Source: Dehalococcoides mccartyi 195
Lineage (GTDB): Bacteria > Chloroflexota > Dehalococcoidia > Dehalococcoidales > Dehalococcoidaceae
Length of the DNA stretch: 64,000 bases
Reading direction: 5' to 3'
Assembly (NCBI RefSeq): GCF_000011905.1
Contig: NC_002936.3
Span: 186,001 to 250,000 of the forward strand
A model generated the notes under the pieces. That model ran no database searches, had not been told where the DNA came from, and was given only the letters and a program-made list of their open reading frames with translations. Shown here piece by piece: positions 39,863 to 59,879 of this stretch. Positions within the stretch are counted from its first letter, which is position 1. Every line of letters begins with the position of its first letter. The position numbers and the translations under genes are program-made.

Positions 39863-40289
39863 ATAATTCTGATACTTTTAATCATAGCATATCTTTGCGT
39901 TATTAATGGTTATATTCGGTAACTATTTAGTAACTTTTCTTCAGGTTATTTTGTTACTTCAGCTTGCTTTGCATAAACCTAGCTACAGTTTGGGTTGCCC
40001 GGGTACAGATTTGTTACCAGATAACTCAGGCTTATTCTGCTTGCGGCCAGAGCGTGTGCCGCCGTAGCTAAATACACGCTTTAAATCTTAGCGTATCTTC
40101 CAAATCAAATTGATACCGTTGCCCCGGAAATCACCACCTATTGTTACCTGAGATGAAACTTTGACTTGGTATATTTAGTTCAAGTAATTGGGGTATGAGC
40201 TAAATCTATAGCTAAAAGGGGGGGTACTATGCGCTTTGGCACCGGGAAAGACCGGGCTTATCCAAAATATAAATTGTGAGGTTGGATGT
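39863..40289. promoter_or_regulatory. Divergent regulatory region upstream of rdhA
   Basis: About 430 bases between the regulatory operon and rdhA. It contains GTAAC in direct repeat, 11 bases apart (39919-39923 and 39930-39934), an inverted GTTAC at 39953-39957, GTTACCAGATAAC (40013-40025, arms GTTA/TAAC), another GTTACC at 40143-40148, and an ACGCT/AGCGT inverted repeat (40076-40094). OmpR-family regulators bind direct repeats at one-turn spacing, so the GTAAC sites are candidates for the response regulator. A weak promoter candidate is TTGACT 40161-40166. No gene is seen here. Confidence 0.5.
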
Positions 40290-41762
40290 ATGCAAAATTT
40301 CCATTCTACTTTATCAAGACGTGACTTTATGAAGGGGATTGGGTTAGCTGGTGCTGGCTTTGGTGCTGCTGCTGCTACAGCTCCGGTATTCCGTGATTTG
40401 GATGAAGGTGCTTCCATAGCCGCTAATACTTATAAGAAAAATCCGTGGTGGGTCAAAGAGCGCAATTATTGTGACCCCACGACTCCTATTGACTGGGATG
40501 TATGGAAAGCATTTGACGCTACTCATTATGACTACATCGGCGGACAGTATTCTGAAGAGTATTTAGCTCAAATCGGTGTCCCTTCGGTACTCAATGAGAG
40601 TGTAGCAAAGAGGCACGAACGTATAACTTCTCGTTTGGGCAAGCCTGGGTTCTCCATGCAGGACTGGGCCTTTTGTCAGGGCGCTAAAAATGTAACTTCT
40701 TCCATGTGCTATAACGAATTTGGTCAGAGTCGGTCCATGTTCTTGGGTGACAAGAAAATGATGGATGAAGTGATGACCCCGGAACAGATTGGTTTGTCCA
40801 AGTATGAAGGTACTCCTGAATATAATGCTCTTATGTTAAAAAGCGCTATTCGCTTTTTGGGTGGTACAGATATTCGGTGTTTACCAGTTGATGACAAGAC
40901 TAAGAGGGTATTGAACGTTGGGGAGAATCAGCATCCTGACCAGCCCTATGTCTGGGAGGATGGAATATCTTGGCCTTATGAGACTATGACCAAACGGGCT
41001 ATTCCTACGAAAGACGCCCACATCTTAGTGTTCAGCTATAACGGTTCATTTGACGGTACCGTACGCAGCCCCTCCTGGATATCTAACGGCGTTGCTTTTA
41101 ATCAGTGTCTTTCAGGTGATTCTATTCAGCTTTACCTGCAACGCTTTCTAAAGGGTCTTGGCTACTGGCTGGTAGGCGGTGACGATTTCCCCGGTATAGC
41201 CAGTTATCCAGGCGCAGGTGCGTTGTCCGGTTTTGGCGAAATTGGCCGTATTGGTCATGCTGTTGGTTGGGATAAATGGATGCGCTGCACCCGCCTGATG
41301 GTAACTAATCTTCCTCTGCCGGCGGATAACCCCATAGATTTCGGGGTAGTTTCCTTCTGCACCACTGCCTGCAAGAAATGTGCCGAATTCTGCCCTGTCA
41401 GCGCTATCAAGATGGATTCGGAGCCCAGCTGGGAATTGGCCACTGACCCCTCTAACCCGTACCTTAAACCCCAGAATTTCAATAACCCCGGCCGTAAGAC
41501 CTGGTATCTGAACCAGGCTGGTTGCTTCTCCAACTGGTGTTTGACTGATACTTTCTGTGGTATTTGTATGGGAGAATGCGTATTTAACAAACTGGCTGAT
41601 TCCAGTATCCACGAGGTTGTTAAACCCGTTATTGCTAATACCACTTTGCTGGACGGCTTCTTCTTTAATATGGATAAAGCCTTTGGCTATGGCTGTCTGC
41701 CTGAAGATCAATGGGAAGACTGGTGGACGCTGGGCGAGAAGATGCCTATACATGGTATTTAG
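40290..41762 (+). CDS. rdhA: Reductive dehalogenase catalytic subunit
   Basis: A 490-residue corrinoid/Fe-S enzyme that removes halogens from organohalides as terminal respiratory reductase outside the membrane. The Tat signal is SRRDFMKGIGLAGAG near residue 9, with the mature protein beginning near FRDLDEG. Fe-S ligands are C357, C361, C364, C368 (CTTACKKCAEFCP) and a second group C412/C417, C423, C426, C430 (CGICMGEC). The first motif is Cx3Cx2Cx3C rather than the common Cx2Cx2Cx3C. GAGG eight bases before ATG 40290 sets the start. Substrate cannot be inferred; the sequence differs clearly from TceA, VcrA and BvcA as I remember them. rdhB follows after 38 bases. Confidence 0.95.
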   Translation: MQNFHSTLSRRDFMKGIGLAGAGFGAAAATAPVFRDLDEGASIAANTYKKNPWWVKERNYCDPTTPIDWDVWKAFDATHYDYIGGQYSEEYLAQIGVPSVLNESVAKRHERITSRLGKPGFSMQDWAFCQGAKNVTSSMCYNEFGQSRSMFLGDKKMMDEVMTPEQIGLSKYEGTPEYNALMLKSAIRFLGGTDIRCLPVDDKTKRVLNVGENQHPDQPYVWEDGISWPYETMTKRAIPTKDAHILVFSYNGSFDGTVRSPSWISNGVAFNQCLSGDSIQLYLQRFLKGLGYWLVGGDDFPGIASYPGAGALSGFGEIGRIGHAVGWDKWMRCTRLMVTNLPLPADNPIDFGVVSFCTTACKKCAEFCPVSAIKMDSEPSWELATDPSNPYLKPQNFNNPGRKTWYLNQAGCFSNWCLTDTFCGICMGECVFNKLADSSIHEVVKPVIANTTLLDGFFFNMDKAFGYGCLPEDQWEDWWTLGEKMPIHGI

Positions 41763-41800: not shown

Positions 41801-42079
41801 ATGTTTTGGCCTATAGTTATGGTCATTTTGACAATCGTTGTCGGGGCTCTGCTGATGTGGGGCAAAAATAAGGGGCTATCATTCAAAATGTATGAATGGC
41901 TGCTTTTTATTGCCGGTATAGCCTTGTTTATTTTCACTCTGGAAAATATTCAGGGTAGTTTTCAGGAGAATGTGCCTAAAGCCGCTCTGATGTTTGTGCT
42001 GGTAACCGGCATTCCTTCCATTATCTTGCTTGCCATACCCGCCATAGGTACTTTCAGACGGGGTAGCGGCCGGTCTTAA
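41801..42079 (+). CDS. rdhB: Reductive dehalogenase membrane anchor
   Basis: A 92-residue protein with three hydrophobic helices (MVILTIVVGALLMW, WLLFIAGIALFIF and AALMFVLVTGIPSIILLAIP), and a conserved EN-x-x-GS loop before the third. RdhB holds RdhA at the outer face of the membrane. AGGAT precedes the ATG. It directly follows rdhA, as in nearly all Dehalococcoides loci. Confidence 0.93.
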   Translation: MFWPIVMVILTIVVGALLMWGKNKGLSFKMYEWLLFIAGIALFIFTLENIQGSFQENVPKAALMFVLVTGIPSIILLAIPAIGTFRRGSGRS

Positions 42080-42255: not shown

Positions 42256-43476
42256 ATGGAATATATGAAAACTAAAATCGGAATCAAGCAAGTTGTAATA
42301 TCTTTGGTTGTAGTAACCCTGGTAGGGTCTTTTATTGTCGGGCAGTTGCCCAAGGAAACCCGGATTGAATCATATCTGCCGGATAATGGCACCGGCTGCA
42401 CCTATGACCTGGTAAAGTATATTCCGCCTCAGGATTATATTTTTAAATCTGTAGACGCTGAGGGTAATGTAACCGGTTATATTACCCTTACCGAAGGCAA
42501 AGGCTACGGGGGAATACTTTTGGTGGAGATAGAGTGGACGCCGGACGGTACCATCCTGTCCATTTCTGTTCCCCAGCAGCAAGAAGGTGATGCCTGGTGG
42601 GATAAGCTTAAAACGCATGAGTTTTTTGAACAGTATGTGGGGCGGCAGTTTAATACCGGCCTGCTGCTTGGGGAAGACATAGATGCAGTTTCCGGGGCCA
42701 CCATTTCCAGCAACGGGGTGGCTTTGGGTGTATATGAAGGCAGGGCTCTGGTAGCGGCTGAACTGGGGGAGCCCTATCCCGCTCCGGTAGAGACTGTTAA
42801 ATTCGGTTTGGGTGAGATACTTCTGGTGACCGGCTTGCTGATGGCGGTGGTGTTCCGGACTATGGCCGTTTTTCAGAAGCGGAAATGGTTGCGCTATATT
42901 ACGCTGGGATTAGGGCTGGTGGTTCTGGGTTTCTGGTTATCCCGCCCCCTTAGTCTGACCAATATTGCCGCCTGGCTTATCGGCTCACCGCCCAATATGG
43001 CTAATAATCTATTCCTTTATATACTGGTTATTGGGGTGGTCGGCTTAGCCCTGCTGACCGGCAAGAATTTCTACTGCTTCTGGCTGTGCCCGTTTGCTGC
43101 CGTGCAAGAGGTAACCCACCGGATTGGTGGCCAGATAGGCCTGCGTCCCAAACCCAAAGTCTACAGATTCTTACGGAATATCCGTTACCTGCTGCTGTGG
43201 GCAACCCTGGTGATGGTCTTCTGGTTTACCAATCCTTCTCTGTCTGTTTTTGAGCCCTGGGGCACTCTGTTCAGTCAGGTGGGCACCTATGACCAGTGGT
43301 TGCTGCTGATTGTAACTATCACCTTTGGTTTCTTTATCTTTAGCCCGTGGTGCTTTTATTTGTGCCCGGTAGGGGCGTTTATGGATGTTGTACTCAAAAT
43401 CCGTAAAGGAGGGATAGGCCTTTGGAACAGACTAAGAAATCCGGCGGAAAAGAAATTAGCCGGGGACAAAACATAA
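42256..43476 (+). CDS. NosR/RdhC-like membrane flavoprotein with CxxxCP motifs
   Basis: A 406-residue membrane protein. After an N-terminal helix (VVISLVVVTLVGSFIVG) comes an extracytoplasmic FMN-binding domain with the flavinylation motif VSGATISS (flavin-accepting T149), then five or six helices and two NapH/NosR-type CxxxCP motifs (CFWLCPFAAVQE and CFYLCPVGAFMD). This is the layout of NosR, NirI and RdhC/VcrC proteins, thought to move electrons from the quinone pool or help maturation of the exported enzyme. ATG 42265 is an alternative start. It follows rdhAB after a hairpin. Confidence 0.88.
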   Translation: MEYMKTKIGIKQVVISLVVVTLVGSFIVGQLPKETRIESYLPDNGTGCTYDLVKYIPPQDYIFKSVDAEGNVTGYITLTEGKGYGGILLVEIEWTPDGTILSISVPQQQEGDAWWDKLKTHEFFEQYVGRQFNTGLLLGEDIDAVSGATISSNGVALGVYEGRALVAAELGEPYPAPVETVKFGLGEILLVTGLLMAVVFRTMAVFQKRKWLRYITLGLGLVVLGFWLSRPLSLTNIAAWLIGSPPNMANNLFLYILVIGVVGLALLTGKNFYCFWLCPFAAVQEVTHRIGGQIGLRPKPKVYRFLRNIRYLLLWATLVMVFWFTNPSLSVFEPWGTLFSQVGTYDQWLLLIVTITFGFFIFSPWCFYLCPVGAFMDVVLKIRKGGIGLWNRLRNPAEKKLAGDKT

Positions 43477-44363: not shown

Positions 44364-45110
44364 ATGAAAACGAATATATACCATATTACTCATACCCCTA
44401 CTACCGGGAGTGTCTCGCTGCGTTTTTGGGGCTGTAATATGAGCTGTCACGGGTGTCTGTGCAAAGAGGGTATTTATGACCATCTGCTGAAAGAAAACAG
44501 ACTTGGTAACCTGCCTCAAACTGAAAATGCCTTTAAACCCAGGCGTCTGCTGGAACTGGATGAAGTACTGGCCAGACTTGATGAACTGAAACCCCAAAAG
44601 GTGTTCCTGACCGGAGAAGAAGCCTCTCTTGACCCGAATTACGCCGCCATTACCCGGGCTTTTCATGAGCGGTATGGCTGTAAAAATGTTTTATATACCA
44701 ACGGGTTTAAAATGCCTGCCCTGGGAGACACCGATGCGGTTGAGGTGGGTATAAAGGCTATTTCCGAGGAACTGCACCAGTGGTACACCGAACGTTCGGT
44801 TGAGCCGATAAAGCAAAACTTTATCCGTTATGCCCATTCGGAGGTAAAGCTGACTGCCGCTTCCATACTTATACCCGGGCTGGTGGAAATAGATGAAATT
44901 GAGCGGATAGCCCAATTTATAGCCGGTGTCAACCCGGATATACCGTATTTTGTGCTGCCGTATTTCCCGGCCGGCAATAATAGCTGGCGTAAAACCAGCC
45001 CTTATGAGGTGGCCGAAGCGGTGGAAAGAGTAAGCCGCTATCTGACGAATGTATCCGGCTGTCAGGGAGTTGAGCAGGAAATACTCCACGAAGTGGAACG
45101 GGTAGTCTAA
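44364..45110 (+). CDS. Radical SAM protein 1 of the corrinoid island
   Basis: A 248-residue PflA-like radical SAM protein. The cluster-binding CxxxCxxC is C24, C28, C31 (FWGCNMSCHGC), with a further C33. SAM-contact segments are KVFLTGEEASLDPNY (the GGEP-like strand) and VLYTNGFKM. It is one of three homologues in this island (also 45853 and 47493) that share the N-terminal YH/YQ-ITY start, WGCN, the EEASLDP/EASLD motif and the NG strand. No extra Fe-S cluster domain is seen. Substrate unknown; the neighbours suggest corrinoid or dehalogenase maturation. Confidence 0.85.
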   Translation: MKTNIYHITHTPTTGSVSLRFWGCNMSCHGCLCKEGIYDHLLKENRLGNLPQTENAFKPRRLLELDEVLARLDELKPQKVFLTGEEASLDPNYAAITRAFHERYGCKNVLYTNGFKMPALGDTDAVEVGIKAISEELHQWYTERSVEPIKQNFIRYAHSEVKLTAASILIPGLVEIDEIERIAQFIAGVNPDIPYFVLPYFPAGNNSWRKTSPYEVAEAVERVSRYLTNVSGCQGVEQEILHEVERVV

Positions 45111-45114
45111 GGCT

Positions 45115-45837
45115 ATGGCCGGGACTGTTTCCAGAATATATTATCCCAGAGTGTTTGTTACCGGAGTCGGTACCGGCGGCCGGGCTTTCCTGACGCCGGC
45201 AGCCGAAGAGACTGTAAAAAGCTGCGGTATTATTGTGGGCTGGCCGGAAGTTATAAAAAACCTGGGATTCGGGCTGGAAAACAAGCTGGTTTTAGAGCAG
45301 AACTGCCTTAATTACCAGCAATTACTGGCTGAGGCGGCCGGTTTGGCCAGGGCTAAACTGGAAGACGTTGCCCTTTTGGTTATGGATGACCCGCTGGTAT
45401 ATTCGGCCGGACTTGGCGGCTATAGTGACATCTTTAAAGACTTCCGGATTGAATTTATACCGGCTGTTTCCAGCCTGCAGTTACTGGCTGCTTCCGCCCG
45501 GCTTTCACTGGAAGACTGTCTGCAGGTGGTCTATAGACCGGATGCCTCCGGCAATATTGACCAATCTGATTTAGCCTTAAAACGGGAGCGGATGCTCAAA
45601 GCCCTGAAGGCTGGCTATCATATACTGGTACTTAGTGACCTGGAACAGACACTTGCCCAGACCGCCTGTTTTTTGATTGAGAAAGGGCTGGCTGTTGAGA
45701 CCGGGGTAATAGTGGGTGAGCAGATGGGCACTGACAGCCAGAAAATAACCGAAAAAAGTATCCTGGAAGTTTCCCGGGATACCAGCCACTGGATGTCCTG
45801 CATGGCGGTCAGACAGGGCAAAATTTTAAAGAAGTAA
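45115..45837 (+). CDS. Orphan CbiE-like tetrapyrrole methylase
   Basis: A 240-residue SAM-dependent tetrapyrrole methylase like CbiE/CobL-N. It has the glycine-rich VFVTGVGTGGRAFLTPAAEE, LVMDDPLVYSAGL (the usual GDP is DDP here), and FIPAVSSLQLLAASARL, close to the conserved PGISS/AAARLG. CbiE acts at C5/C15 in corrin-ring construction, yet no other ring-building gene is nearby. It may modify an imported corrinoid or bind one. A second CbiE-like domain is fused to BtuF at 53758-54776, so the family is present twice. It lies between two radical SAM genes. Confidence 0.82.
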   Translation: MAGTVSRIYYPRVFVTGVGTGGRAFLTPAAEETVKSCGIIVGWPEVIKNLGFGLENKLVLEQNCLNYQQLLAEAAGLARAKLEDVALLVMDDPLVYSAGLGGYSDIFKDFRIEFIPAVSSLQLLAASARLSLEDCLQVVYRPDASGNIDQSDLALKRERMLKALKAGYHILVLSDLEQTLAQTACFLIEKGLAVETGVIVGEQMGTDSQKITEKSILEVSRDTSHWMSCMAVRQGKILKK

Positions 45838-45852
45838 ATTGCGAGGGAATTT

Positions 45853-46677
45853 ATGACTATCTCCAACCTTAAATATCAGAATAACCCGGAGCTTTGGGCA
45901 GATAAAATGGACAGGCAGACCAATGTTTATCATGTTGCCTATGCCCCGGCTATCAAAAAGGCTTACCTTTTCCACTGGGGATGCAACCTGGAATGCAGGG
46001 GCTGTTTGTGCAAGAAGGAAATAAACTGCATGGCGCTGGAGGAGAATCTGGACGTGGTCTTCCGTGACCCCCGTTTCTGTCCCCCCCAGACCCCGTCTGC
46101 CCCGCTTTCCTTCGGTAAGCTCATTTCCCTGCTTCAGGATATAGAACTTACCGAGGTGGCCTTTGAAGGGCAGGAAGCCTCGCTTGACCCGATGCTGCCG
46201 GATATCTGCCGCTGGCTGAAGGAGCGGGGCTGCAAGGTAATCCTGCATACCAACGGGGTAGCTATGGCGGATGCCAGCCATATAGATGACGTTATTGTCA
46301 GCCTGAAGGCTATTACCCCTGAAATATATGCCGGCTATACCTGCCGTTCCAACTCAAGCCTGCTTGAAAATTTTAAGGAATACTATCAGGCCGGGGTTAA
46401 CCTGAAGGCTGAAAGCGTGTTTATACCGGGCTATATTGACCTTGAAGAAACCGAAAAAATAGCCAGGTTTATTGCTTCGGTAGATGAAAATATACCCTAC
46501 CGGATGGATGCTTATTTTGAATCCGGGGATAATCCCTGGCGGCCGCCTACGCCTGAGGAGATGCAGACGGCACTGGAAGTGGCCCGCAAGCACCTGAAGA
46601 ATGTTTATTGCACCCAGCAGACCAAGCAAAACTTAAGCAAAGCAGACCTGCTGTACGAAGTGGTGCGGCTGTATTAG
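45853..46677 (+). CDS. Radical SAM protein 2 of the corrinoid island
   Basis: A 274-residue radical SAM protein with C44, C48, C51 (HWGCNLECRGC) and the shared EVAFEGQEASLDPML and VILHTNGVAM strands. Compared with paralogues 1 and 3 it has an N-terminal extension of about 20 residues (ISNLKYQNNPELWADKM); GAGGGAA just before ATG 45853 supports this longer form. It sits between the CbiE-like and the first CbiZ gene. Function unknown. Confidence 0.84.
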   Translation: MTISNLKYQNNPELWADKMDRQTNVYHVAYAPAIKKAYLFHWGCNLECRGCLCKKEINCMALEENLDVVFRDPRFCPPQTPSAPLSFGKLISLLQDIELTEVAFEGQEASLDPMLPDICRWLKERGCKVILHTNGVAMADASHIDDVIVSLKAITPEIYAGYTCRSNSSLLENFKEYYQAGVNLKAESVFIPGYIDLEETEKIARFIASVDENIPYRMDAYFESGDNPWRPPTPEEMQTALEVARKHLKNVYCTQQTKQNLSKADLLYEVVRLY

Positions 46678-46707: not shown

Positions 46708-47487
46708 TTGACTACTAAGAGTGAACTTAAAAAGATATCTCTGGGTTCGTTTGAAGGTTTTACGGCCGATACGGTTTATTATACGGCTATCGGCTATCCC
46801 AATAATGTTTTTGCCCTGCGTTTTAATGAAATGCGGGATGTCATAAGCAGCCGTCACGGTATTATGAAGTCAGACTTTTTAACTATCTGCCATATACCGG
46901 ATGAGCTGGGCCTTTATATGCATGACCAGAGCAAGAGCCATTTCTATTATTACGGGCAGCTTCTGGCAGATGTGCTTAAAGAATATGACGTTGAAATTGA
47001 AAACACCGCTTTTCTCTCCACCGGTGTCCAGATGCGTAATCTGGCTTTTGCGGTGGAAAGGTATGAAGAACTCTGGGTAGTCTGCTTTACCACTGCCGGC
47101 GTCCGCCACAATGCGGTGCGTATAGGCAAAGATGCGGCAGTGGGTATAGAGCGTAACGGGGAATTCAAAGGTTTCGGCACTATCTGCCATGTGGTGGTGA
47201 CCAATGCCTCTTTTGACCACGGGGCACTGGTTTCATCAATCATAACCGTTACCGAGGCCAAGAATGTAGCCTTGCAGGAAATGGATATACGCAGTTCCCA
47301 TAATCCTGACTGGCTGGCTACCGGCACCGGTACAGACCAGGTGATTGTAGCCTCCGGCTTTGGAGAGAAGTGCAAGTATGTTCAGGGGCACACTGTAATA
47401 GGTAAAATGATGGCTGATGCGGTTATAAAATCTACCAAAGAAGCGGTGGCTAACTGTATCCGGGATACGGCCGGACAGCCTGACTAG
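46708..47487 (+). CDS. cbiZ: Adenosylcobinamide amidohydrolase, copy 1
   Basis: A 259-residue CbiZ-family protein. CbiZ cleaves the aminopropanol arm from adenosylcobinamide or pseudocobalamin, giving adenosylcobyric acid, so that the lower ligand can be rebuilt. The family core is clear: STGVQMRNLAF, TTAGVRHNAVRIGKDA, VVTNASFDHGALVSSIITVTEAKNVALQEMDIRS and ATGTGTDQVIVASG. The TTG start is supported by AAGGAGG (46693-46699) eight bases upstream. A second, diverged copy lies at 52955-53761. It is flanked by radical SAM genes 2 and 3. Confidence 0.93.
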   Translation: MTTKSELKKISLGSFEGFTADTVYYTAIGYPNNVFALRFNEMRDVISSRHGIMKSDFLTICHIPDELGLYMHDQSKSHFYYYGQLLADVLKEYDVEIENTAFLSTGVQMRNLAFAVERYEELWVVCFTTAGVRHNAVRIGKDAAVGIERNGEFKGFGTICHVVVTNASFDHGALVSSIITVTEAKNVALQEMDIRSSHNPDWLATGTGTDQVIVASGFGEKCKYVQGHTVIGKMMADAVIKSTKEAVANCIRDTAGQPD

Positions 47488-47492
47488 CCAAG

Positions 47493-48233
47493 ATGAATAT
47501 TTACCAGATTACCTATGAGCCGAATTACCGGGTGCTGGGGCTTCACTTCTGGGGCTGCAACCTTTTTTGCCGCGGCTGTTATAAAAACTACCGGATTGAC
47601 GACCTTAGTCTGCCGGGCAGTTCGGTAGAACAGCTTAAAGATGCTCCCAGAGCCAAAAATCCTGCCAGATTTTTAACCCTTGAGGAAGTGCTGGAAAAGA
47701 CTGAAGGCCTGACCCCCAGAGATATATTCTTTATGGGCAAGGAAGCCTCGCTTGACCTCGAACTGCCTCTGCTGGCAGCCCGGCTTCATGCCCGGCACAA
47801 GAGCTTCCACACCCTGCTGACCAACGGGCGTAAACTTACCGACCTTTCAGATATAGACGAAGCGGTTTTCGGCTTTAAATCTGCCAGCGAATCTGTCCAC
47901 CGGGAATATACCGGGCTGTCCAATACGGGCATACTGGCTAATTTCAAGAAGGTTTACCAGAGCGGTAAAAAGGTTCAGGCTGAAATAGCTTTCATTCCCG
48001 ACCTGGTGGAAGAGGAAGAGATTGGGGCGCTGGCTAAGACTATCTCTGAAATAGACCGCCGGCTTCTTTTCCGGGTTACGGCCTATTTTGCTGTACCGGG
48101 AGCTCCGTGGCCTTCGGCCTGCCGGGAGCAGGTGGAAGATGCCGCTTCAGTTGCCCGCAGATACCTTGATAACGTGGTTACTATGGCCTCTGACAGCCGG
48201 GATAACGGCTGGAAGCCGGAAGTAATTTTTTAG
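47493..48233 (+). CDS. Radical SAM protein 3 of the corrinoid island
   Basis: A 246-residue radical SAM protein with C22, C26, C29 (FWGCNLFCRGC), the DIFFMGKEASLDLEL strand and TLLTNGRKL. It resembles paralogues 1 and 2 in length, motif spacing and its N-terminus (MNIYQITYEPNY). It starts five bases after cbiZ and ends eight bases before the ribonucleotide-reductase-like gene. Substrate unknown; see the findings on the whole island. Confidence 0.85.
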   Translation: MNIYQITYEPNYRVLGLHFWGCNLFCRGCYKNYRIDDLSLPGSSVEQLKDAPRAKNPARFLTLEEVLEKTEGLTPRDIFFMGKEASLDLELPLLAARLHARHKSFHTLLTNGRKLTDLSDIDEAVFGFKSASESVHREYTGLSNTGILANFKKVYQSGKKVQAEIAFIPDLVEEEEIGALAKTISEIDRRLLFRVTAYFAVPGAPWPSACREQVEDAASVARRYLDNVVTMASDSRDNGWKPEVIF

Positions 48234-48241
48234 GAATAAAT

Positions 48242-49999
48242 ATGAAACTAAGCCAAAATGCCAGGATTGTGCTTGAGAAACGTTACCTCAAACGGGACGG
48301 GGACGGGAATATTGCCGAATCCTCGGAGGATATGTTCCGCAGGGTAGCGGACACGGTGGCGGCGGCTGAAAATGCCTATAACCCGCCTGGTAAGGCTGCC
48401 TGTATGGCAGAAGAGTTTTACGGCATGATGACCGGATTTGAGTTCCTGCCCAATTCGCCCACCCTTCTGAATGCCGGGCGGGAACTGGGGCTTTTATCCT
48501 CCTGTTTTGTATTGCCGGTGGCAGATTCGGTTGCGGGGATAGCGAAAGCTGTCGGCGAAGCCATGGTTATCCACCAGTACGGGGGCGGTACCGGCTTTGC
48601 TTTTGATGCCATACGGCCGGAAGATGACCCGGTAAAAAGCGGCCATAAGGTGGCCGGCGGGCCGGTCAGGCTGGTGGGGGTCTTTTCGGAAGCGGTCAAC
48701 TACATAAAGCAGGCCGGGGTGCGCTGCGGCTGCAATTCGGCCAGTCTGCCGGTAAATCACCCGGACATTTTAAAATTTATCCGGGCTAAAGATGAAGGCA
48801 GTCACTCCGCCAACTTCGGCATCAATATTGCCCTGACGGATGATTTTATCCGGAAAGTCCGGCGCGGAGAAGATTATGAGCTGGTTAACCCGCGCACCGG
48901 AAGGGTCAGCGGCAGTTTATCCGCCGCCGAGGTCTTTTACCGCATAGCCCGAAGCTCTTGGGAAACGGGTGACCCGGGGATAATGTTTATTGACCGCATA
49001 AATAAAGATAACCCCACCCCCCGGCTTGGGGAATTTATAACTACCGACCCCTGCGGTGGACAGCCTTTGCTACCGTACGAATCAGCCACTTTGGGGACAA
49101 TAAACCTGTCCGGTATGCTCTTGAAAGAAGGCAACTGCTGCCGGGTGGATTACCCGCGGCTTGGCGGGCTGATTGCCAAAGCTGTCCGCTTTCTGGATGA
49201 CGTACTGGAGGTAAACCGCTATCCGTCAGCCGAGGTTGAAAAAGCGGCTAGGGCCACCCGCAAAATAGGTCTGGGGTTTATGGGCTTTGCCGAGATGCTG
49301 ATAAAGCTGGGTATCCGCTATGATTCAGCGGAAGCGGTATCCGCAGCAGATGAGCTTATGGCTTTTGTAAAAGAAGCTGCCTGCCAGGCCACCGAAGAGC
49401 TGGCTCTGGAACGGGGGGCTTTTCCGGCTTTTGCAGGCAGTATATATGCCCAAAAGGGTGCCAAACCCAGACGGAATGCCACCTGCCTTACCTTTACCAA
49501 TACCGGCACTACCAGCATTATTGCCGATACCTCGGTCGGTATTCACCCCATATATTCGCTGGTTATGGTCCGCAACATACTGGACGGGCAGCGGCTGCTG
49601 GATATAAACCATGCTTTTGAAGAAACCGCCAGAGAGAGGGGCTTTTTCAGCCCGGCGCTTATAGAAAAACTGCTTACTGGGGAAAGTCCCTGTAACTGCC
49701 CGGAGATACCGGAGGATTACCGCCGGTTGCTGGTTACCGCCCGGGATATTCAGCCGGAATGGTGTATCAGGGTGCAGGCAGCTTTCCAGAAATATACTGA
49801 CAATGCTATTTCCCAAACGGTCAATTTCCCTGCCGATGCCTCGGTTGAGGATATCGCAGATTTATTCCTTAAAGCCCACGAGCTGGGTCTTAAAGGGGTT
49901 ACGGCTTACCGTGACAGCAGCCGGGAATTGCAGGTGCTTTGCACCGGTGCGGACTGCCGGGATATAGCCAGAAAGTATTTTGAGGATTGCTGTGTTTAA
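48242..49999 (+). CDS. Class II ribonucleotide reductase homologue with altered active site
   Basis: A 585-residue protein of the adenosylcobalamin-dependent NrdJ family. The fold is clear: FLPNSPTLLNAGRELGLLSSCFVLPV, QYGGGTGF, NHPDILKFIRAKD, QPLLPYESATLGTINLS, and the TNTGTTSIIADTSVGIHPIYS loop. Catalytic residues differ from the canonical enzyme: the NPCGE motif reads D269-P-C271-G-G273, so the Asn and Glu that act on the ribose are replaced, and the partner redox Cys (ESCNLGS) is A282. C271 and the first-site Cys of LLSSC remain. The C-terminus has LCTGADC and CC. It may be a repurposed AdoCbl enzyme or a sensor. It overlaps the cob(I)alamin adenosyltransferase gene. Confidence 0.85.
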   Translation: MKLSQNARIVLEKRYLKRDGDGNIAESSEDMFRRVADTVAAAENAYNPPGKAACMAEEFYGMMTGFEFLPNSPTLLNAGRELGLLSSCFVLPVADSVAGIAKAVGEAMVIHQYGGGTGFAFDAIRPEDDPVKSGHKVAGGPVRLVGVFSEAVNYIKQAGVRCGCNSASLPVNHPDILKFIRAKDEGSHSANFGINIALTDDFIRKVRRGEDYELVNPRTGRVSGSLSAAEVFYRIARSSWETGDPGIMFIDRINKDNPTPRLGEFITTDPCGGQPLLPYESATLGTINLSGMLLKEGNCCRVDYPRLGGLIAKAVRFLDDVLEVNRYPSAEVEKAARATRKIGLGFMGFAEMLIKLGIRYDSAEAVSAADELMAFVKEAACQATEELALERGAFPAFAGSIYAQKGAKPRRNATCLTFTNTGTTSIIADTSVGIHPIYSLVMVRNILDGQRLLDINHAFEETARERGFFSPALIEKLLTGESPCNCPEIPEDYRRLLVTARDIQPEWCIRVQAAFQKYTDNAISQTVNFPADASVEDIADLFLKAHELGLKGVTAYRDSSRELQVLCTGADCRDIARKYFEDCCV

Positions 50000-50531
50000 G
50001 GTATCTGGGAAGCCCCAGCCCGGTCTTGTACAGGTCTTTTACGGTGACGGGCGGGGCAAGACCTCGGCCGCTATGGGTGAGATTGTGCGGGCTGTTTCTG
50101 CCGGGCTCAGGGTTACGGTAGTGTTCTTTATGAAAGGCGAACGCCGGAATGCCGAATATAGTTCCTTAAAAGCTCTGGGGGTGGAATACGCTGTTTTTGG
50201 CCGGAGCAGTTTTTTAAGCGGTGCAGACGCCCGGGCAGAAGATGCCAGACTTTGCCGTCAGGCTCTTAAGTTTGCCGAAGGGCAGATAAGTTCGGGTAAA
50301 TGGGATTTGGTGGTGCTGGACGAAATAAACAATGCCCGTTACTACGGCTTTATAGAAACAGAGGATATTTTAAAACTGCTTTCCGTCAAACCGGCCCGTA
50401 CCTCACTGGTGCTTACCGGCAAAACGGCGGACAAAGAGGTAGCGGCAAAAGCAGACCTGGTGGCTGAATTTCGCAAACTGAAGCACCCGTATGACCGGGG
50501 TATTTTAGCCCGGGCGGGTATAGACTATTAG
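49992..50531 (+). CDS. cobO: Cob(I)yrinic acid a,c-diamide adenosyltransferase (CobO/BtuR)
   Basis: A 179-residue corrinoid adenosyltransferase. The P-loop GDGRGKTSAAMGEIVRA binds ATP and the segments VTVVFFMKG and LVVLDEINNARYYGFIE are typical of CobA/CobO/BtuR. It adds the 5'-deoxyadenosyl group to the cobalt, making substrates for CbiZ, CbiB and adenosylcobalamin enzymes such as the neighbouring reductase homologue. GTG 49992 has GAGG six bases upstream and overlaps the previous gene by eight bases; TTG 49980 is an alternative. Confidence 0.92.
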   Translation: MFKVSGKPQPGLVQVFYGDGRGKTSAAMGEIVRAVSAGLRVTVVFFMKGERRNAEYSSLKALGVEYAVFGRSSFLSGADARAEDARLCRQALKFAEGQISSGKWDLVVLDEINNARYYGFIETEDILKLLSVKPARTSLVLTGKTADKEVAAKADLVAEFRKLKHPYDRGILARAGIDY

Positions 50532-50545
50532 GTGAATAAAACACA

Positions 50546-51502
50546 ATGAACGAATATATCCTGATACTTATTCTGGCTGTCCTTTGGGATTTGGCTCTGG
50601 CTGAGCCTCCGGCGGCTATCCACCTGACTGTCTGGATAGGGCGGGTGATTTCGCTGGTGGAGAAGGCAGGGCTTAAGATACGCAGTCGCGCCCTGCAGTA
50701 TATCTTCGGCATGGCGGCCTCTTTGTTCCTGATAGCTTTATTCGGCTGGCTGACTTATCTGCTGCTTGATTATCTGGGCGGCCTAAGCTTTGCCTTATAC
50801 CTGATAGCCGCCTTTTTAATCCTGAAGACCACGTTCTGTTTACGCTTTAACGCCCGCATGTCTTTACTGGTGGAGAAATACCTGAAAGGCGGGGACTACC
50901 GGATAGAGAGTGCCGCCCCGGAAATCCGCTATCTTCTGACAACGGTTGAACGTGACAAGGAGGACGGATTTGCTCCGCCCATGATATCCTCCACCATCCG
51001 TTCGCTGGCGGAAAACGCTTCGGATTTTCTGGTAGCCCCTCTGTTCTATTTTCTGATTCTGGGTGTGCCGGGGGCGGTGGCCTACCGGGTTTGCAACACC
51101 CTGGACGGTATGCTGGGACACCGCGGTGAGTACGAATACCTGGGTAAGTTTGCCGCCTGCCTGGATGATATCATTAACTATCTGCCGTCCAGACTTACCG
51201 GGCTGATGTTTATACTGGCGGCTTTTGTTTCGGGGATGGATGGCCAAAACGCCTGGAGGATTGCCCTCAGGGACCAGTCCAAAACCGAAAGCCCCAATGC
51301 CGGCTGGCCGATGGCATCTGTTGCCGGAGCACTGGGGGTAAGGCTGGAGCGGGCTGGCCACTATGCGCTGGGGGATGCGGCAAAACCCCTCAGCCCCGGT
51401 CACATTGGTCAGGCCGTAAGGCTGTTCGGGGTGATGTCCGCTATCAGCATTGCCATCAGTACGGGCATACTGCTGGCGGTATATTTAATAAGCTTGAACT
51501 GA
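50546..51502 (+). CDS. cbiB: Adenosylcobinamide-phosphate synthase (CbiB/CobD)
   Basis: A 318-residue membrane protein that joins adenosylcobyric acid to aminopropanol (or its phosphate), the step opposite to CbiZ. Motifs: LAVLWDLALAEPPAAIHLTVWIGR at the N-terminus, STIRSLAENASDFLVAPLFYFLILG and the C-terminal NAGWPMASVAGALGVRLE. Several membrane helices are visible. With CbiZ and CobO nearby, imported corrinoids can be trimmed and rebuilt. Confidence 0.95.
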   Translation: MNEYILILILAVLWDLALAEPPAAIHLTVWIGRVISLVEKAGLKIRSRALQYIFGMAASLFLIALFGWLTYLLLDYLGGLSFALYLIAAFLILKTTFCLRFNARMSLLVEKYLKGGDYRIESAAPEIRYLLTTVERDKEDGFAPPMISSTIRSLAENASDFLVAPLFYFLILGVPGAVAYRVCNTLDGMLGHRGEYEYLGKFAACLDDIINYLPSRLTGLMFILAAFVSGMDGQNAWRIALRDQSKTESPNAGWPMASVAGALGVRLERAGHYALGDAAKPLSPGHIGQAVRLFGVMSAISIAISTGILLAVYLISLN

Positions 51503-52954: not shown

Positions 52955-53761
52955 ATGCAACTGAAAAATACAGGGTATTCACCGGTAACTTTGGAAAGGG
53001 AGGTCTGTTCTTTGCCGGGTGTAAAAGCCGAAGTGTTTTCCACTCGTGTCTGGGATGCCCCGGCTAATCTGCTGGCGGTCTTTTTTGATGAAGACCATGC
53101 CGCCCTTTCAGGTACAGACGGCTACGGCAGCATCCGGCTGGTCTGCAACTGCTACCTGCCAAAAGATTTGTGTGATTACCTTCATTTCAACCACAAAGAT
53201 TACGATGATTATTTAAAAGACCTGAAGCAAGAGATGGCCTCATTTTACAGTCTTGAAACCCAGGAAATCTTCATGCTGTCCACCGGGGTCAGCATGGACG
53301 AAGTTTGTTATACTCTTGAATCCGGGGATAAGCTCTGGGTCTGCGCCTGGGTTACGGCCGGTTTTAAGCATAATGCCATGCGGATAGGGGTGGATAAAGG
53401 CGCAGGACTGGAGGTTGAAGGGGAATGCCAGCCCTGCGGAACTATAAATATCATTACCGCCACTAATGCCCGGCTGGACTCTGCCGCTCTGGCTTCCAGC
53501 TTTGTGACTGTTACCGAAGCCAAGGTGGTGGCCCTGCAGGACCTTAATATCCACAGTTCATTTAATCCGGCCTTGCAGGCAACTGGCACTGGTACTGACC
53601 AGATAGTAGCGGTTTCCGGCTGGGATTTTGGCTGCCGCTATGTCGGCGGGCATACCCGGCTGGGGGAAATGACGGCCAGAGCGGTTACCTCCGCCTGCCG
53701 GAAAGCCCTCAGCATCCAGCTGGCCAAAGACCCCAATTATCACTCCGGGGGTAAAAAATGA
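52955..53761 (+). CDS. cbiZ: Adenosylcobinamide amidohydrolase, copy 2
   Basis: A 268-residue CbiZ-family protein diverged from the copy at 46708. Core motifs: LSTGVSMDEVCYTL, WVTAGFKHNAMRIGVDKGAG, ATNARLDSAALASSFVTVTEAKVVALQDLNI and ATGTGTDQIVAVSG. Two different copies suggest different corrinoid substrates, for instance cobinamide and a cobamide. AGGAGG precedes the ATG. The stop overlaps the BtuF-like start by four bases. Confidence 0.92.
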   Translation: MQLKNTGYSPVTLEREVCSLPGVKAEVFSTRVWDAPANLLAVFFDEDHAALSGTDGYGSIRLVCNCYLPKDLCDYLHFNHKDYDDYLKDLKQEMASFYSLETQEIFMLSTGVSMDEVCYTLESGDKLWVCAWVTAGFKHNAMRIGVDKGAGLEVEGECQPCGTINIITATNARLDSAALASSFVTVTEAKVVALQDLNIHSSFNPALQATGTGTDQIVAVSGWDFGCRYVGGHTRLGEMTARAVTSACRKALSIQLAKDPNYHSGGKK

Positions 53762-54828
53762 GTACAGCTGCCAAATACGCCACCCGCCAGATAACTGACC
53801 AGGCCGGACGCCAGGTTCATTTCGGCTGCTTGCCCCAGCGGATTATATCCCTTGCCCCCAGCCTGACCGAAATAGTGTATGCCCTGGGAGCGGAAGACCT
53901 TTTAAAGGGCGTGACTGACTACTGTGATTACCCTCCCGAAGCCAAAAACAAGCCCAGGGCTGGCGGTTACAGTACAGTTGACGTCGACCAGATTGGCAAA
54001 ATACAGCCGGATTTGATACTGGCCGGGCAGATACACTTAAAAGATATTGTCCCCCGGCTGGAGGCGCTGGGTTATCCGGTGCTGGTGCTTGAACCAAGCA
54101 CGGTAGAAGGTTTGCTGGAAACTATCCGGATAGTGGGCAAGTGTACCGGGCGGGCTAAGGCCGCTGAACTGCTGGCGGAGTCACTGGGCAGGCGGACAGA
54201 CTTTATAACCGCCAAAATCGCTTCCCTGTCACCGGAAAACCGCCCCCTGGTTTATGTTTTGCATGAATGCCAGACCTGGAAAACCTTTGGTTCGGATACC
54301 ATAGGGGATACCCTGATTGAGATGGCCGGGGGGTATAATATCGGGCGGGATTTCGGCCGTTATTATCCGTATCCTGCCAAAGAGGATATTAAACTCAAAA
54401 ACCCGGATATTATTATTGCCGAAACCGGTTACGGGGATAACCCCCGGGAACCGCTTAATATCGCCCTTGGCGAGCCTGTTCTGGCAGAGGTAACCGCCCG
54501 CCGGACCGGGCGGGTCTTTGGTATCCACAGTGACCTGGTCAGCCGGGCAGGCCCCCGGATGGTGGACGGGCTGGAGTGTCTGGCTCACCTTATTCACCCG
54601 GAGTTATTTCCGGCCAAACCTGCCGTTTGCTGCGGCCGGGTCTATATAGCCGGGGTAGGGCCGGGTTTGGCTAAGTGGGTTTCACCCAGAGTGAAAGAGC
54701 TGGTGGCCGAGGCGGATATACTGGTGGGTTGGAAACAGGACTTGCAACCTGTAAAGGGTCTGATTAAAAGTCAAAAGCTAAAAAACCAGGCGGAGCCACT
54801 CTCCTTTGCATTATGTTATGTATATTAG
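53758..54828 (+). pseudogene. BtuF corrinoid-binding protein fused to CbiE, truncated by an insertion
   Basis: Residues 1 to about 285 form a BtuF-like corrinoid-binding ABC domain (RIISLAPSLTEIVYALGAEDLLKGVTDYCDYPPEA, VDQIGKIQPDLILAGQ), without an obvious signal peptide. From about residue 292 a CbiE-like methylase begins (GRVYIAGVGPGLAKWVSPRVKELVAEADILVGW), parallel to the start of the complete protein at 45115, then stops after about 50 residues and turns into the unrelated tail KLKNQAEPLSFALCYVY. The sequence beyond about 54776 is an integrated element, so the gene was probably broken by insertion; the missing part should lie past the element's far end. The BtuF half may remain functional. 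Confidence 0.82.
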
Positions 54829-55478
54829 AATCTTTTGATAGAAGCAATAACTCTTCCCAATATATCAGCGTTAGTCATAACTAAATCTTTATAATCTCCA
54901 TTTGAGGACCGCAGAATAATCTGTCCATTATTCAAATATAGATGTTTTGCAGTCACTTCATTATGCGCTGTACGAACGGCATAAATTTTACCTTCAAACA
55001 TCTCTGAATCTTTATCAACAATGATTATATCGCCGTTTTCAATCCCATCCCCTTTGAGGCTCTCACCGCTCACTCTCAACGCATACACTCTCTTACTCGC
55101 ATTTTTTAATAATTCCTTTGGGACAGGAACATAATCAGATGCTGCCTCTTCATCTACTAATTCCGGATATCCTGCGGGTATATAACCAATTACTGGGATG
55201 AATTCAATATCATCCATTCTTCTGGATATTGCTTGTGCGCGGCTTAATAAATTACCAAGAGATTCTTCTTTCTCACCCAATAATGCTGATGTCGAAATAT
55301 CAAGTCCACGCGCTAACTTCTGCGCAATTCCAAGTGTAGCACTATATGTTTTCCCGCTTTCCAATTGGGATATGTAGGCACGATCTACACCTGATCTCCG
55401 GGCTAATTCACTCTGCGTCATACCTATTTTTTTGCGTAACTCTTTGAGCGTTATACCTATTGATGACTTATCTTCCAT
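54825..55478 (-). CDS. LexA/CI-type repressor (HTH plus S24 peptidase)
   Basis: A 217-residue repressor. Residues about 8-65 form an HTH_3 domain (LRKKIGMTQSELARRSGVDRAYISQLESGK), and the C-terminal half is an S24 self-cleaving domain with the Ser in RVSGESLKGDGIENGD and the Lys near GKIYAVRTAHNEVTAKHLY. RecA-stimulated self-cleavage would lift repression during DNA damage. ATG 55478 is preferred; GTG 55493 would add five residues. It is divergent from the small HTH gene at 55589, with palindromic operators between them. Confidence 0.92.
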   Translation of the reverse strand: MEDKSSIGITLKELRKKIGMTQSELARRSGVDRAYISQLESGKTYSATLGIAQKLARGLDISTSALLGEKEESLGNLLSRAQAISRRMDDIEFIPVIGYIPAGYPELVDEEAASDYVPVPKELLKNASKRVYALRVSGESLKGDGIENGDIIIVDKDSEMFEGKIYAVRTAHNEVTAKHLYLNNGQIILRSSNGDYKDLVMTNADILGRVIASIKRF

Positions 55479-55538
55479 AGCACCTATTTTCACTTGCCTG
55501 TTGAATATTTACAAGTTGTAGATATATTTAACAAAAGT

Positions 55539-55579
55539 GTCAATTATATATTGACTTAAGTCAATGGTAGTGGTATCCT
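55539..55579 (+). promoter_or_regulatory. Tandem palindromic operators and rightward promoter of the element
   Basis: Between the divergent repressor and HTH genes, the half-site GTCAAT recurs: GTCAAT (55539-55544), ATTGAC (55550-55555), GTCAAT (55560-55565). They form a 17-base palindrome with a TATAT centre and an overlapping perfect 14-base palindrome TTGACTTAAGTCAA (55551-55564). The -35 TTGACT (55551-55556) and -10 TATCCT (55574-55579, 17-base spacer) overlap the sites, so a bound repressor would block RNA polymerase. Confidence 0.72.
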
Positions 55580-55588
55580 CATGTAGAA

Positions 55589-55819
55589 ATGAGCAACAAA
55601 ATAGTTGATATTATCAAACAATACCTTGGCAAAAACAGCATCTCGGGAAACCAATTTTCCCGGACAATAGGATTTGACCCAGCAATATGGTGCAGAATTA
55701 AGCACAAAAAAATGCAACCCTCACCTGCATTTTTGACAAGTGTCGCTCGGACTTATCCGGAACTGCGTCTCCAAATTCAAGAGTCGATGTTTGGTACAGA
55801 GGAGAACGATGGAAACTAA
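55589..55819 (+). CDS. Small Cro-like helix-turn-helix protein
   Basis: A 76-residue protein. The segment SISGNQFSRTIGFDPAIWCRIKHKKMQPSPAFLTSVART has the helix-turn-helix pattern of Cro/XRE-type regulators (a helix, a turn at IGFDP and a recognition helix). It faces away from the S24 repressor, as Cro does from CI, and is the first gene of the element's rightward transcript. It overlaps the next gene by 11 bases. Confidence 0.72.
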   Translation: MSNKIVDIIKQYLGKNSISGNQFSRTIGFDPAIWCRIKHKKMQPSPAFLTSVARTYPELRLQIQESMFGTEENDGN

Positions 55820-56303
55820 TAAATCAGAAATAGAACTATATCCCATGACTCCATCTCAAATTCGGCAACGTAAAAATGCCGGAGCACTCGGAGGTCAAGC
55901 TATTCTGGAACGATACGGAGTCGAGTGGTTACAGAAAATCGGTAAGCTTGGTGGGAGACCTAGATTAGCAAATATTGAACTATTAAGACAGCAAAAAGCC
56001 CTTAAGGCTGCTAATAAAGAAAATCAGATAGGAGGAATGGACAGCCGCCGGTCTGAAAACCTGGGGCAACTTAAACGGCTTATAAGGCTGAAATACTTTG
56101 GGGCGAAGTGTGAGCTTCGTCCCAGAAAGGGGAATGAGGCAATGCCTCAACAACAAGTGGCTTATCGTATCAAGAATGAACGCACCGGTCAATGGTGGGA
56201 GGGAAAGGCTGATAGCCCGATAGATGCCATGCGGAAAGCCGGCAATGAATTCCCGGTCAGAAACCCTAAGTTCGGCTATTTCCATTTAACTAGTCTGAAA
56301 TGA
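55809..56303 (+). CDS. Hypothetical protein of the mobile element
   Basis: A 164-residue, strongly basic protein; no family recognised. The N-terminal part has IRQRKNAGALGGQAILERYG and IGKLGGRPR, a Gly/Arg pattern found in small phage and plasmid DNA-binding proteins, and the C-terminal part KNERTGQWWEGKADSPIDAMRKAG resembles short phage-associated domains. GAGGAG four bases before ATG supports it. The last codons overlap the upstream frame of the primase region. Confidence 0.6.
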   Translation: METNKSEIELYPMTPSQIRQRKNAGALGGQAILERYGVEWLQKIGKLGGRPRLANIELLRQQKALKAANKENQIGGMDSRRSENLGQLKRLIRLKYFGAKCELRPRKGNEAMPQQQVAYRIKNERTGQWWEGKADSPIDAMRKAGNEFPVRNPKFGYFHLTSLK

Positions 56304-56311
56304 GGTCCAAT

Positions 56312-58918: not shown

Positions 58919-59243
58919 ATATTTTTTACCGGCGGGGGGTATATCAAAATTTTGGAAACATGGAAACAAACCACTTTTTCCAATCGTGGCTTACGTTGTT
59001 TCCAAGACCTGGAAACAAGCCCTAAATTTTGGAAACATTGGAAACAGACATAATGTTAGCTGGAAACATTTTGGTAACACGATTGATATACGAACAAATA
59101 AACTACTTAACAATAATAAAATGGAAACATTTTGGAAACAACGTAACTTAGCTTTGAGATTCCTTTATTGTTTCCATGTTTCCAAAAGAATAGGAGTTAG
59201 CTGACATGAAGATTGTTAAATCATTCTCAAAGGGCTCGGATAA
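58919..59243. repeat. Iteron-like cluster of TGGAAACA repeats
   Basis: Over 58953-59184 the octamer TGGAAACA occurs eight times on the plus strand (58953, 58961, 59010, 59030, 59039, 59061, 59122, 59133) and three times inverted (58997, 59169, 59177), plus one variant TGGTAACA (59072). The spacing is irregular (8 to 61 bases). The cluster lies between the primase-helicase and the recombinase. It could be a replication origin or a multi-site operator. The only open frame over it (58857-59204) is built from the repeats and is not credible as a gene. Confidence 0.72.
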
Positions 59244-59247
59244 ATGA
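59206..59247 (+). CDS. Possible 13-residue peptide coupled to the recombinase gene
   Basis: A short frame (ATG 59206) with TAGGAG about ten bases upstream. Its stop overlaps the recombinase start as ATGA. The recombinase start has only a weak AGGG, so this micro-frame might allow translational coupling. No function is implied by the peptide. Confidence 0.3.
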   Translation: MKIVKSFSKGSDK

Positions 59248-59879
59248 AAGTCGCGTTATATGCCAGGGTAAGCACTCGGGATAAAAATCAGGATCCGGAA
59301 GTCCAACTGATGGAGCTGCGGAAATATTGCCAGGAAAACGGCATGGAAATAACCAGGGAATATATAGATCATGCCTCGGCCAATGATTTCGTCCGCAGGA
59401 CGGCATGGAAACAGTTGTTAGTGGATGCATCTGCCCGAAAGTTTCGGGGGTTACTGGTGTGGAAACTTGACCGGGCATTCCGCGACATTACGGTGGCCAC
59501 CTCGTCCGTTAAAATGCTGCGCAATGCCGGCATAGATTTTATTGTTACCACTGTCCCTGTTCTTTCAGTCCAAGGTCCAGCTGGAGACCTGATGTTTAAC
59601 ATCTATGCCGCTTTTGCCCAGTTTGAAAAGGACACCATTATTGAAAGAGTTAACGCCGGACTTTCAAGAGCAAAGGCTAAGGGTAAGGCATTCGGTCGCC
59701 CAAGAAAGGCAATAGACTTCAATAAGGTTTTGGAAGCCCACGAGATAGCCTGCTCACGGGTTAACCGGATTACTAAAGAAAATCAGGGTTATTCCGAGAC
59801 GGCGAGGATATTGAGCGAGCAGACCGGGCTAAGAATTACAGCCGGTTGGGTCTATAACCGGATAAAGGCCGGCAATTAA
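59244..59879 (+). CDS. Small serine recombinase (resolvase/invertase family)
   Basis: A 211-residue recombinase. The catalytic Ser is S10 (LYARVSTRDKNQDPEVQ); the Arg-bearing LVWKLDRAFRD and the NIYAAFAQFEKDTIIERVNAGL segments are typical. A Hin-type HTH region follows (SETARILSEQTGLRITAGWVYNRI). It is the short resolvase/invertase type, not a large serine integrase, so it may resolve multimers or invert a segment; it may also be the integrase of an unusual element. An integrase for the whole element is not otherwise seen in the window. Confidence 0.9.
   Translation: MKVALYARVSTRDKNQDPEVQLMELRKYCQENGMEITREYIDHASANDFVRRTAWKQLLVDASARKFRGLLVWKLDRAFRDITVATSSVKMLRNAGIDFIVTTVPVLSVQGPAGDLMFNIYAAFAQFEKDTIIERVNAGLSRAKAKGKAFGRPRKAIDFNKVLEAHEIACSRVNRITKENQGYSETARILSEQTGLRITAGWVYNRIKAGN

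Follow-up and report, generated by a model that had tools for sequence, protein, structure and literature searches.

A class II ribonucleotide reductase homologue with DPCGG in place of NPCGE in a cobamide gene cluster of Dehalococcoides mccartyi

Described relatives and the gene cluster

In ribonucleotide reductases (RNRs) the active site is normally re-reduced by a C-terminal dithiol; a class II RNR lacking the Cys-rich tail was still active when assayed with DTT (PMC5704485). Class III RNRs contact the ribose without the Asn and Glu of the class I and II enzymes and still reduce nucleotides (PMC4493059). DUF71 proteins, some of which are predicted to act in B12 salvage, number five in one Dehalococcoides strain (PMC3541065). 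In a 2026 comparative paper, an expansion of RNR genes together with rdhA was reported in one Dehalogenimonas strain, and some rdhA loci were described as genomic islands with ParB, DnaG-type and RNR genes; the legend of its dcpA island figure lists an RNR gene beside the DNA-replication-associated colour class, and the passages available from that paper do not mention the active site of these RNRs (PMC13390414).

The DNA analysed here (the window) is a stretch of 64,000 nucleotides from D. mccartyi 195, a genome of one contig of 1,469,720 bp. The gene under study is found in a cluster with the following features:

40236..41762, + strand: RdhA reductive dehalogenase with an RRDFMK TAT signal, upstream of the cluster
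41801..42079, + strand: RdhB-like membrane anchor, which clusters with small proteins adjoining rdhA
42256-43476: 406-aa protein between rdhAB and the cobamide cluster, which clusters with an FMN_bind-type neighbour of locus L051
43609..44361, + strand: DUF71/Diphthami_syn_2 PP-loop ATPase, whose relatives directly adjoin other RNR-like genes
44364..45110, + strand: third radical-SAM paralogue, of the branch seen beside the CbiE-like gene
45115..45837, + strand: CbiE-like tetrapyrrole methylase, under the NCBIfam cut-off
45853..46677, + strand: second radical-SAM paralogue, of the branch seen beside CbiZ
46708..47487, + strand: CbiZ-type adenosylcobinamide amidohydrolase (domain scan)
47493..48233, + strand: partner radical-SAM protein with a CNLFCRGC motif, 8 nt 5' of the RNR-like ORF and in the RNR-linked radical-SAM clade
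48242..49999, + strand: NrdJ-derived protein of the DPCGG/ESATLG subfamily, 585 aa, with residues C88, C162, C164, D269, C271, G273, A282, N420 and H435 (domain scans, alignment, model)
49980..50531, + strand: ATP:corrinoid adenosyltransferase, CobA/BtuR family, probable true start GTG 49992
50546..51502, + strand: CbiB-like protein of the salvage cluster, named by clustering and context rather than by family scan; relatives lie beside other RNR-like genes
52955..53761, + strand: CbiZ-like gene, the second in the cluster, assigned through sequence clustering

The first-pass annotation had tied the RNR-like gene to adenosylcobalamin supply through its overlap with the adenosyltransferase gene. 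This overlap is real: it spans 20 nt if translation begins at TTG 49980, or 8 nt if it begins at GTG 49992, which is better placed behind a GAGG Shine-Dalgarno-like stretch; however, the arrangement is not universal, and genome G010 does not have the adenosyltransferase gene at this place. A riboswitch ahead of the cluster was considered and rejected, as Rfam gave no cobalamin riboswitch over the window or the related salvage loci. Adjoining the cobamide cluster, positions 54825-59879 hold an HTH-like regulator, a large primase/helicase-like ORF and a resolvase-like ORF (named by sequence appearance), and this region looks like a mobile element.

Fold and active site of the window protein

The product of the 48242-49999 ORF is matched by both large-chain Pfam domains, Ribonuc_red_lgN and Ribonuc_red_lgC (331 bits), and scores 549 bits against the NCBIfam model TIGR02504 (NrdJ_Z), above its cut-off of 399.95. 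This model does not separate the RNR-like family from true NrdJ. Existing models annotate members of the family as RNRs, and they are therefore misread in the gene counts, metabolic models and comparative papers devoted to these bacteria. The window protein resembles the NCBIfam 'ribonucleotide reductase-like protein' PRK06948 (NF005401) in its NrdJ-like sequence, its modest length of about 600 aa and its lack of a long tail; judged by score it is a non-member, with 226.7 bits against a cut-off of 906.

A phmmer alignment with T. maritima NrdJ (1xje/3o0o) pairs window residues C88, D269, C271, G273 and A282 with C134, N320, C322, E324 and C333, respectively. An AlphaFold2 model of the window protein (pLDDT 90.7, pTM 0.92, 28 aligned sequences) superposes on T. 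maritima NrdJ 3o0q with Z 47.8 and an rmsd of 1.9 A over 545 residues, and therefore the substitutions are no alignment artefact. Domain scan and superposition agree that the RNR barrel and the N-terminal domains are present, and the whole fold is common to the two proteins at 38% identity. Thus the reading made from the letters, with DPCGG for NPCGE, A282 for the second redox Cys, and the fold and C271 kept, is borne out by alignment and by structure prediction against the T. maritima enzyme.

Residues shared with T. maritima NrdJ include the first redox Cys (C134), the thiyl Cys on the finger loop (C322, retained as C271) and the Lys-Gln of loop 2. Conversely, the catalytic Asn and Glu of NPCGE are replaced (N320D, E324G), as are the second redox Cys (C333A), the Pro of the phosphate loop (P490N, window P420N, by which APTG becomes TNTG) and the Ala at the end of loop 2 (A210C). 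E435H and H508C are additional losses. The redox pair is therefore incomplete rather than absent: the annotated loss holds for A282, but C88, the first of the pair, is still in place. The C-terminal CxxC for re-reduction is absent, and the DCCV end of the window protein is not conserved in its orthologues. These substitutions are fixed in 5/5 orthologous loci found.

The window genome holds three class II-type genes by genome search; neither NrdD, sought through an NRDD search, nor a class I small subunit was found in the genome. One of the three encodes a canonical NrdJ of 866 aa with NPCGE, ESCNLG and a six-Cys Zn-finger tail, directly after an NrdR-like gene. From this separate canonical enzyme beside nrdR it follows that the window gene is not the housekeeping RNR, and the absence of any other RNR, which would have told against the first-pass annotation, is not what the genome shows. 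That annotation had also called ordinary ribonucleotide reduction unlikely. The non-housekeeping role stands, but its argument from loss of the Asn and Glu does not suffice, as class III RNRs reduce without those contacts and the active-site change alone does not exclude reduction (PMC4493059). The class III enzyme NrdD is itself a glycyl-radical enzyme of another family, whereas the window protein has only lgN and lgC and no glycyl-radical domain. Stronger arguments against nucleotide reduction come from the genomic context and from the fact that C333, the phosphate-loop Pro and the C-terminal CxxC are all missing together, so that the DPCGG protein is unlikely to reduce NDPs in the normal way. 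With E273, C282 and the Pro of the phosphate loop gone, the DPCGG branch probably acts on a substrate other than an ordinary nucleoside diphosphate.

An Asn-less clade related to the housekeeping NrdJ

The window gene is the extreme branch (DPCGG) of a larger Asn-less family. In the family of the window genome, each of 11 genomes has one long copy and one to about ten short copies, in which NPCGE is replaced by [ITSVC]-type residues with GC[GA]E or by DPCGG; the second class II-type gene of the window genome (599 aa, SGCGE, directly after a radical-SAM gene) is one such copy. In a tree of 64 sequences, 40 noncanonical proteins group together as one clade (support 100/99), with the canonical NrdJ of the same family as sister group; within it the DPCGG proteins sit on a long stem and form a subclade supported at 100/100. 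The clade persists with SH-aLRT 94 when the signature columns are removed and two divergent proteins of another family are added; depending on the tree it holds 40-42 sequences with SH-aLRT 94-99. It was thus shown that the noncanonical clade arose from housekeeping NrdJ and is seen in the order of the window genome only, and a DPCGG clade near corrinoid genes, for which the first-pass annotation had proposed to look, does exist.

Comparison of 40 noncanonical with 22 canonical sequences revealed a consistent pattern. The catalytic Asn is lost, C271 retained and a Cys gained at the end of loop 2 (A164C, T. maritima A210) in 40/40 noncanonical proteins. The C-terminal CxxC is found in none of the 40 but in 21/22 canonical sequences, the one exception being cut by a contig end. 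Outside DPCGG, the Pro of the motif is changed and E273 retained in 36/36 proteins; the PTG phosphate loop is also kept, and most have C88 and C282. The DPCGG branch adds G273, A282, T419-N420, H435, C508 and Q525.

Since E273, C88, C282 and the phosphate loop are retained in most non-DPCGG members, these proteins may still act on nucleotides. The family could then be a nucleotide reductase of an uncommon type: formate or a redoxin, for example, might reduce it directly, as happens in class III, and it would supply dNTPs, or some special deoxynucleotide, during organohalide respiration. The class III active site (PMC4493059) and the activity of a tail-less class II enzyme with DTT (PMC5704485) both speak for this reading, as does the retention of C271, E273 and the phosphate loop outside DPCGG. 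It is nonetheless considered improbable, since the canonical NrdJ leaves no apparent dNTP need, DPCGG also lacks the phosphate-loop Pro and E435, and the neighbours are cobamide and dehalogenase genes rather than those of nucleotide metabolism.

The distribution of the family was examined in larger sets. A DNA signature of loop 2 matches 17/139 genomes of the order, with 0 control matches. In a motif scan of 84,980 species, from which records near the window genome may be omitted and whose pattern misses divergent members, true matches were found only in Dehalococcoidia. Pattern matches outside the order proved not to be family members: L087/L088 encode no RNR, and in L082 and L084 an intein interrupts the protein ahead of the catalytic Cys. 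Immediately in front of that residue, the canonical NrdJ of other organisms has intein-like insertions at L082, L084, L144 and L145. Short length was rejected as a hallmark, as short NrdJ of other Chloroflexota retain NPCGE or NPCSE and the terminal CxxC. Viral contigs hold about 80 class II homologues, canonical (NPCGE) wherever the motif is resolved, and a viral scan with the window protein as query returned no relative.

Transfer and selection bear on two further readings. Near-identical or identical RNR-like genes occur in different species-level genomes (L061/L062, L066/L067, L072/L074), and G003 and G005 share a DPCGG gene without a single nucleotide difference, which suggests recent interspecies transfer. 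The genes might therefore be RNR cargo of a mobile element or phage island, serving DNA replication and lying beside rdhA by chance. Some rdhA islands do carry ParB and DnaG-type genes and an RNR labelled as DNA-replication-associated, in the passages available (PMC13390414). This reading is regarded as very improbable: the genes are most closely related to the NrdJ of their own host, the viral homologues lack the substitutions wherever the motif is resolved, chromosomal salvage-operon members keep synteny across genera, and rdhAB-radical-SAM-RNR-like operons recur in another family.

That the genes are functionless, decaying duplicates is hardly credible. Several active-site losses and one in-frame TGA in a relative would fit decay. 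It is contradicted by the selection signal, as DPCGG has a dN/dS of 0.11 and the SGCGE paralogue one of 0.04, values comparable to the 0.05-0.06 of canonical NrdJ between congeners; moreover, ORFs are intact in nearly all loci and the Cys gain is coordinated. On this sequence measure the window gene (dN/dS 0.11) appears functional and under purifying selection. The in-frame TGA lies at a conserved Trp (DQA-stop-MTGDPG) of an SGCGE RNR-like gene (L076:4860-6638, genome G006) and may reflect decay, sequencing error or recoding. In genome G004 an ORF (L058:2400-2972) begins like a B12-binding radical-SAM protein and continues into an internal piece of an RNR-like protein; it is apparently a recombination remnant.

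Conserved neighbours and a proposed role

In the five DPCGG loci, the order radical-SAM, CbiE-like, radical-SAM, CbiZ, radical-SAM, RNR-like, (CobA), CbiB is mostly retained; one of the five is rearranged and has no CobA at that place. In the DPCGG and SGCGE lineages a radical-SAM gene precedes the RNR-like gene by 0-9 nt, and in order-level lineages such a gene likewise comes immediately before it; the RNR-linked radical-SAM copies form one clade apart from the CbiZ-linked and CbiE-like-linked copies. This adjacency is not obligatory, since in six related genomes (L237-L243) a syntenic radical-SAM gene is followed by BtuF-like cobamide transporter genes with no RNR-like gene between them, whereas G006 and G007 have one. 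The partner protein is a weak match to glycyl-radical-enzyme activases and NrdG-like radical-SAM proteins and has the CxxxCxxC motif, but it falls far under all curated cut-offs and is paired with a class II-type protein that has no glycyl radical domain.

Within 3 kb, rdhA is found at 21/40 noncanonical genes against about 7 expected, radical-SAM genes at 15, DUF71 at 11 and cobamide genes at 11, with at least one such neighbour at 38, counts that are inflated by the shared ancestry of paralogues. Three canonical genes have none of these neighbours. In two genomes of another family, rdhA, rdhB, radical-SAM and RNR-like genes follow each other on the same strand, never more than a few tens of nt apart. 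Dehalogenase genes occur in 16/17 genomes with the RNR-like family and in 18/120 without it; outside the window genome's own family the figures are 5/6 and 18/120 (p = 0.0007, in tests that ignore shared ancestry). The known dehalogenase accessory proteins PceT/RdhT and RdhB are likewise encoded beside rdhA. We know of no sequence relation between them and the RNR-like proteins, and no description of an RNR-fold dehalogenase accessory protein was found in the literature searched. Unlike T. maritima nrdJ, the window gene has a dedicated radical-SAM partner and lies among cobamide and dehalogenase operons.

Taken together, the family is very probably non-housekeeping, neofunctionalised and linked to cobamides and organohalide respiration. 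For the window gene itself, there is about an even chance that it is a repurposed class II RNR, that is, an AdoCbl-binding, Cys-based radical protein serving cobamide or dehalogenase metabolism. Its RNR-like barrel, checked for fold, would still hold adenosylcobamide delivered by the adjoining adenosyltransferase. The invariant C271 would then act in radical chemistry through Co-C homolysis and a thiyl radical, with no dNTPs made, and the product or released cobamide would enter cobamide remodelling or the cofactor supply of reductive dehalogenases, with the radical-SAM protein as functional partner. The invariance of C271 argues for retained radical chemistry, which is held at slightly below even, as the residue could also have been conserved because the structure needs it or because it binds a metal. 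Judging from the radical-SAM partner and the operons, the role of the protein would lie in cobamide remodelling or in supplying cofactor to dehalogenases. Speculatively, the adenosyl group might be removed to give the cob(II)amide needed by dehalogenases. It is doubtful, though conceivable, that the order-specific RNR-fold family and its radical-SAM partner form a cofactor-maturation system of organohalide respiration, which would have left DNA-precursor synthesis and whose retained radical Cys would de-adenosylate or remodel bound adenosylcobamide for reductive dehalogenases.

The main rival is a non-catalytic cobamide carrier, loading chaperone or sensor, in which the NrdJ fold only holds (adenosyl)cobamide and either delivers it, to remodelling enzymes or to RdhA ahead of export, or reports cobamide status. 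The progressive loss of catalytic residues, the separate canonical NrdJ and the directly adjoining rdhA, BtuF-type, CbiZ, CbiB and CobA genes all agree with such a protein. It is rated unlikely, because invariance of C271 (40/40) and of E273 outside DPCGG (36/36) is more constraint than a carrier should need, and the radical-SAM partner suggests chemistry.

RNR being a textbook essential enzyme, repurposing for cobamide or dehalogenase metabolism would, if true, be a clear case of an RNR gaining a new function. The clade is striking in having abandoned the catalytic Asn while keeping the radical Cys, in reaching about ten copies per genome and in travelling with reductive dehalogenase genes. 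Within the open-access literature no paper describing the Asn-less RNR-like family was found, nor any paper with expression evidence under the presumed locus tags. The RNR-like protein and its radical-SAM partner are testable candidates for cobamide loading or remodelling in obligate dehalogenating bacteria.

Two minor features of the loci were also observed. TGCAE members (L040, L044, L046, L047, L048) have no rdhA seen near them and mostly lie directly 3' of a DUF71 gene, L048 being without a called DUF71 ORF; tRNA genes were found in 4/4 of these loci scanned (L046 lay outside the scan). Small DUF2795 proteins flank many rdhA-linked RNR-like genes (L045, L049, L068, L070, L071; two tested, the rest assigned by clustering).
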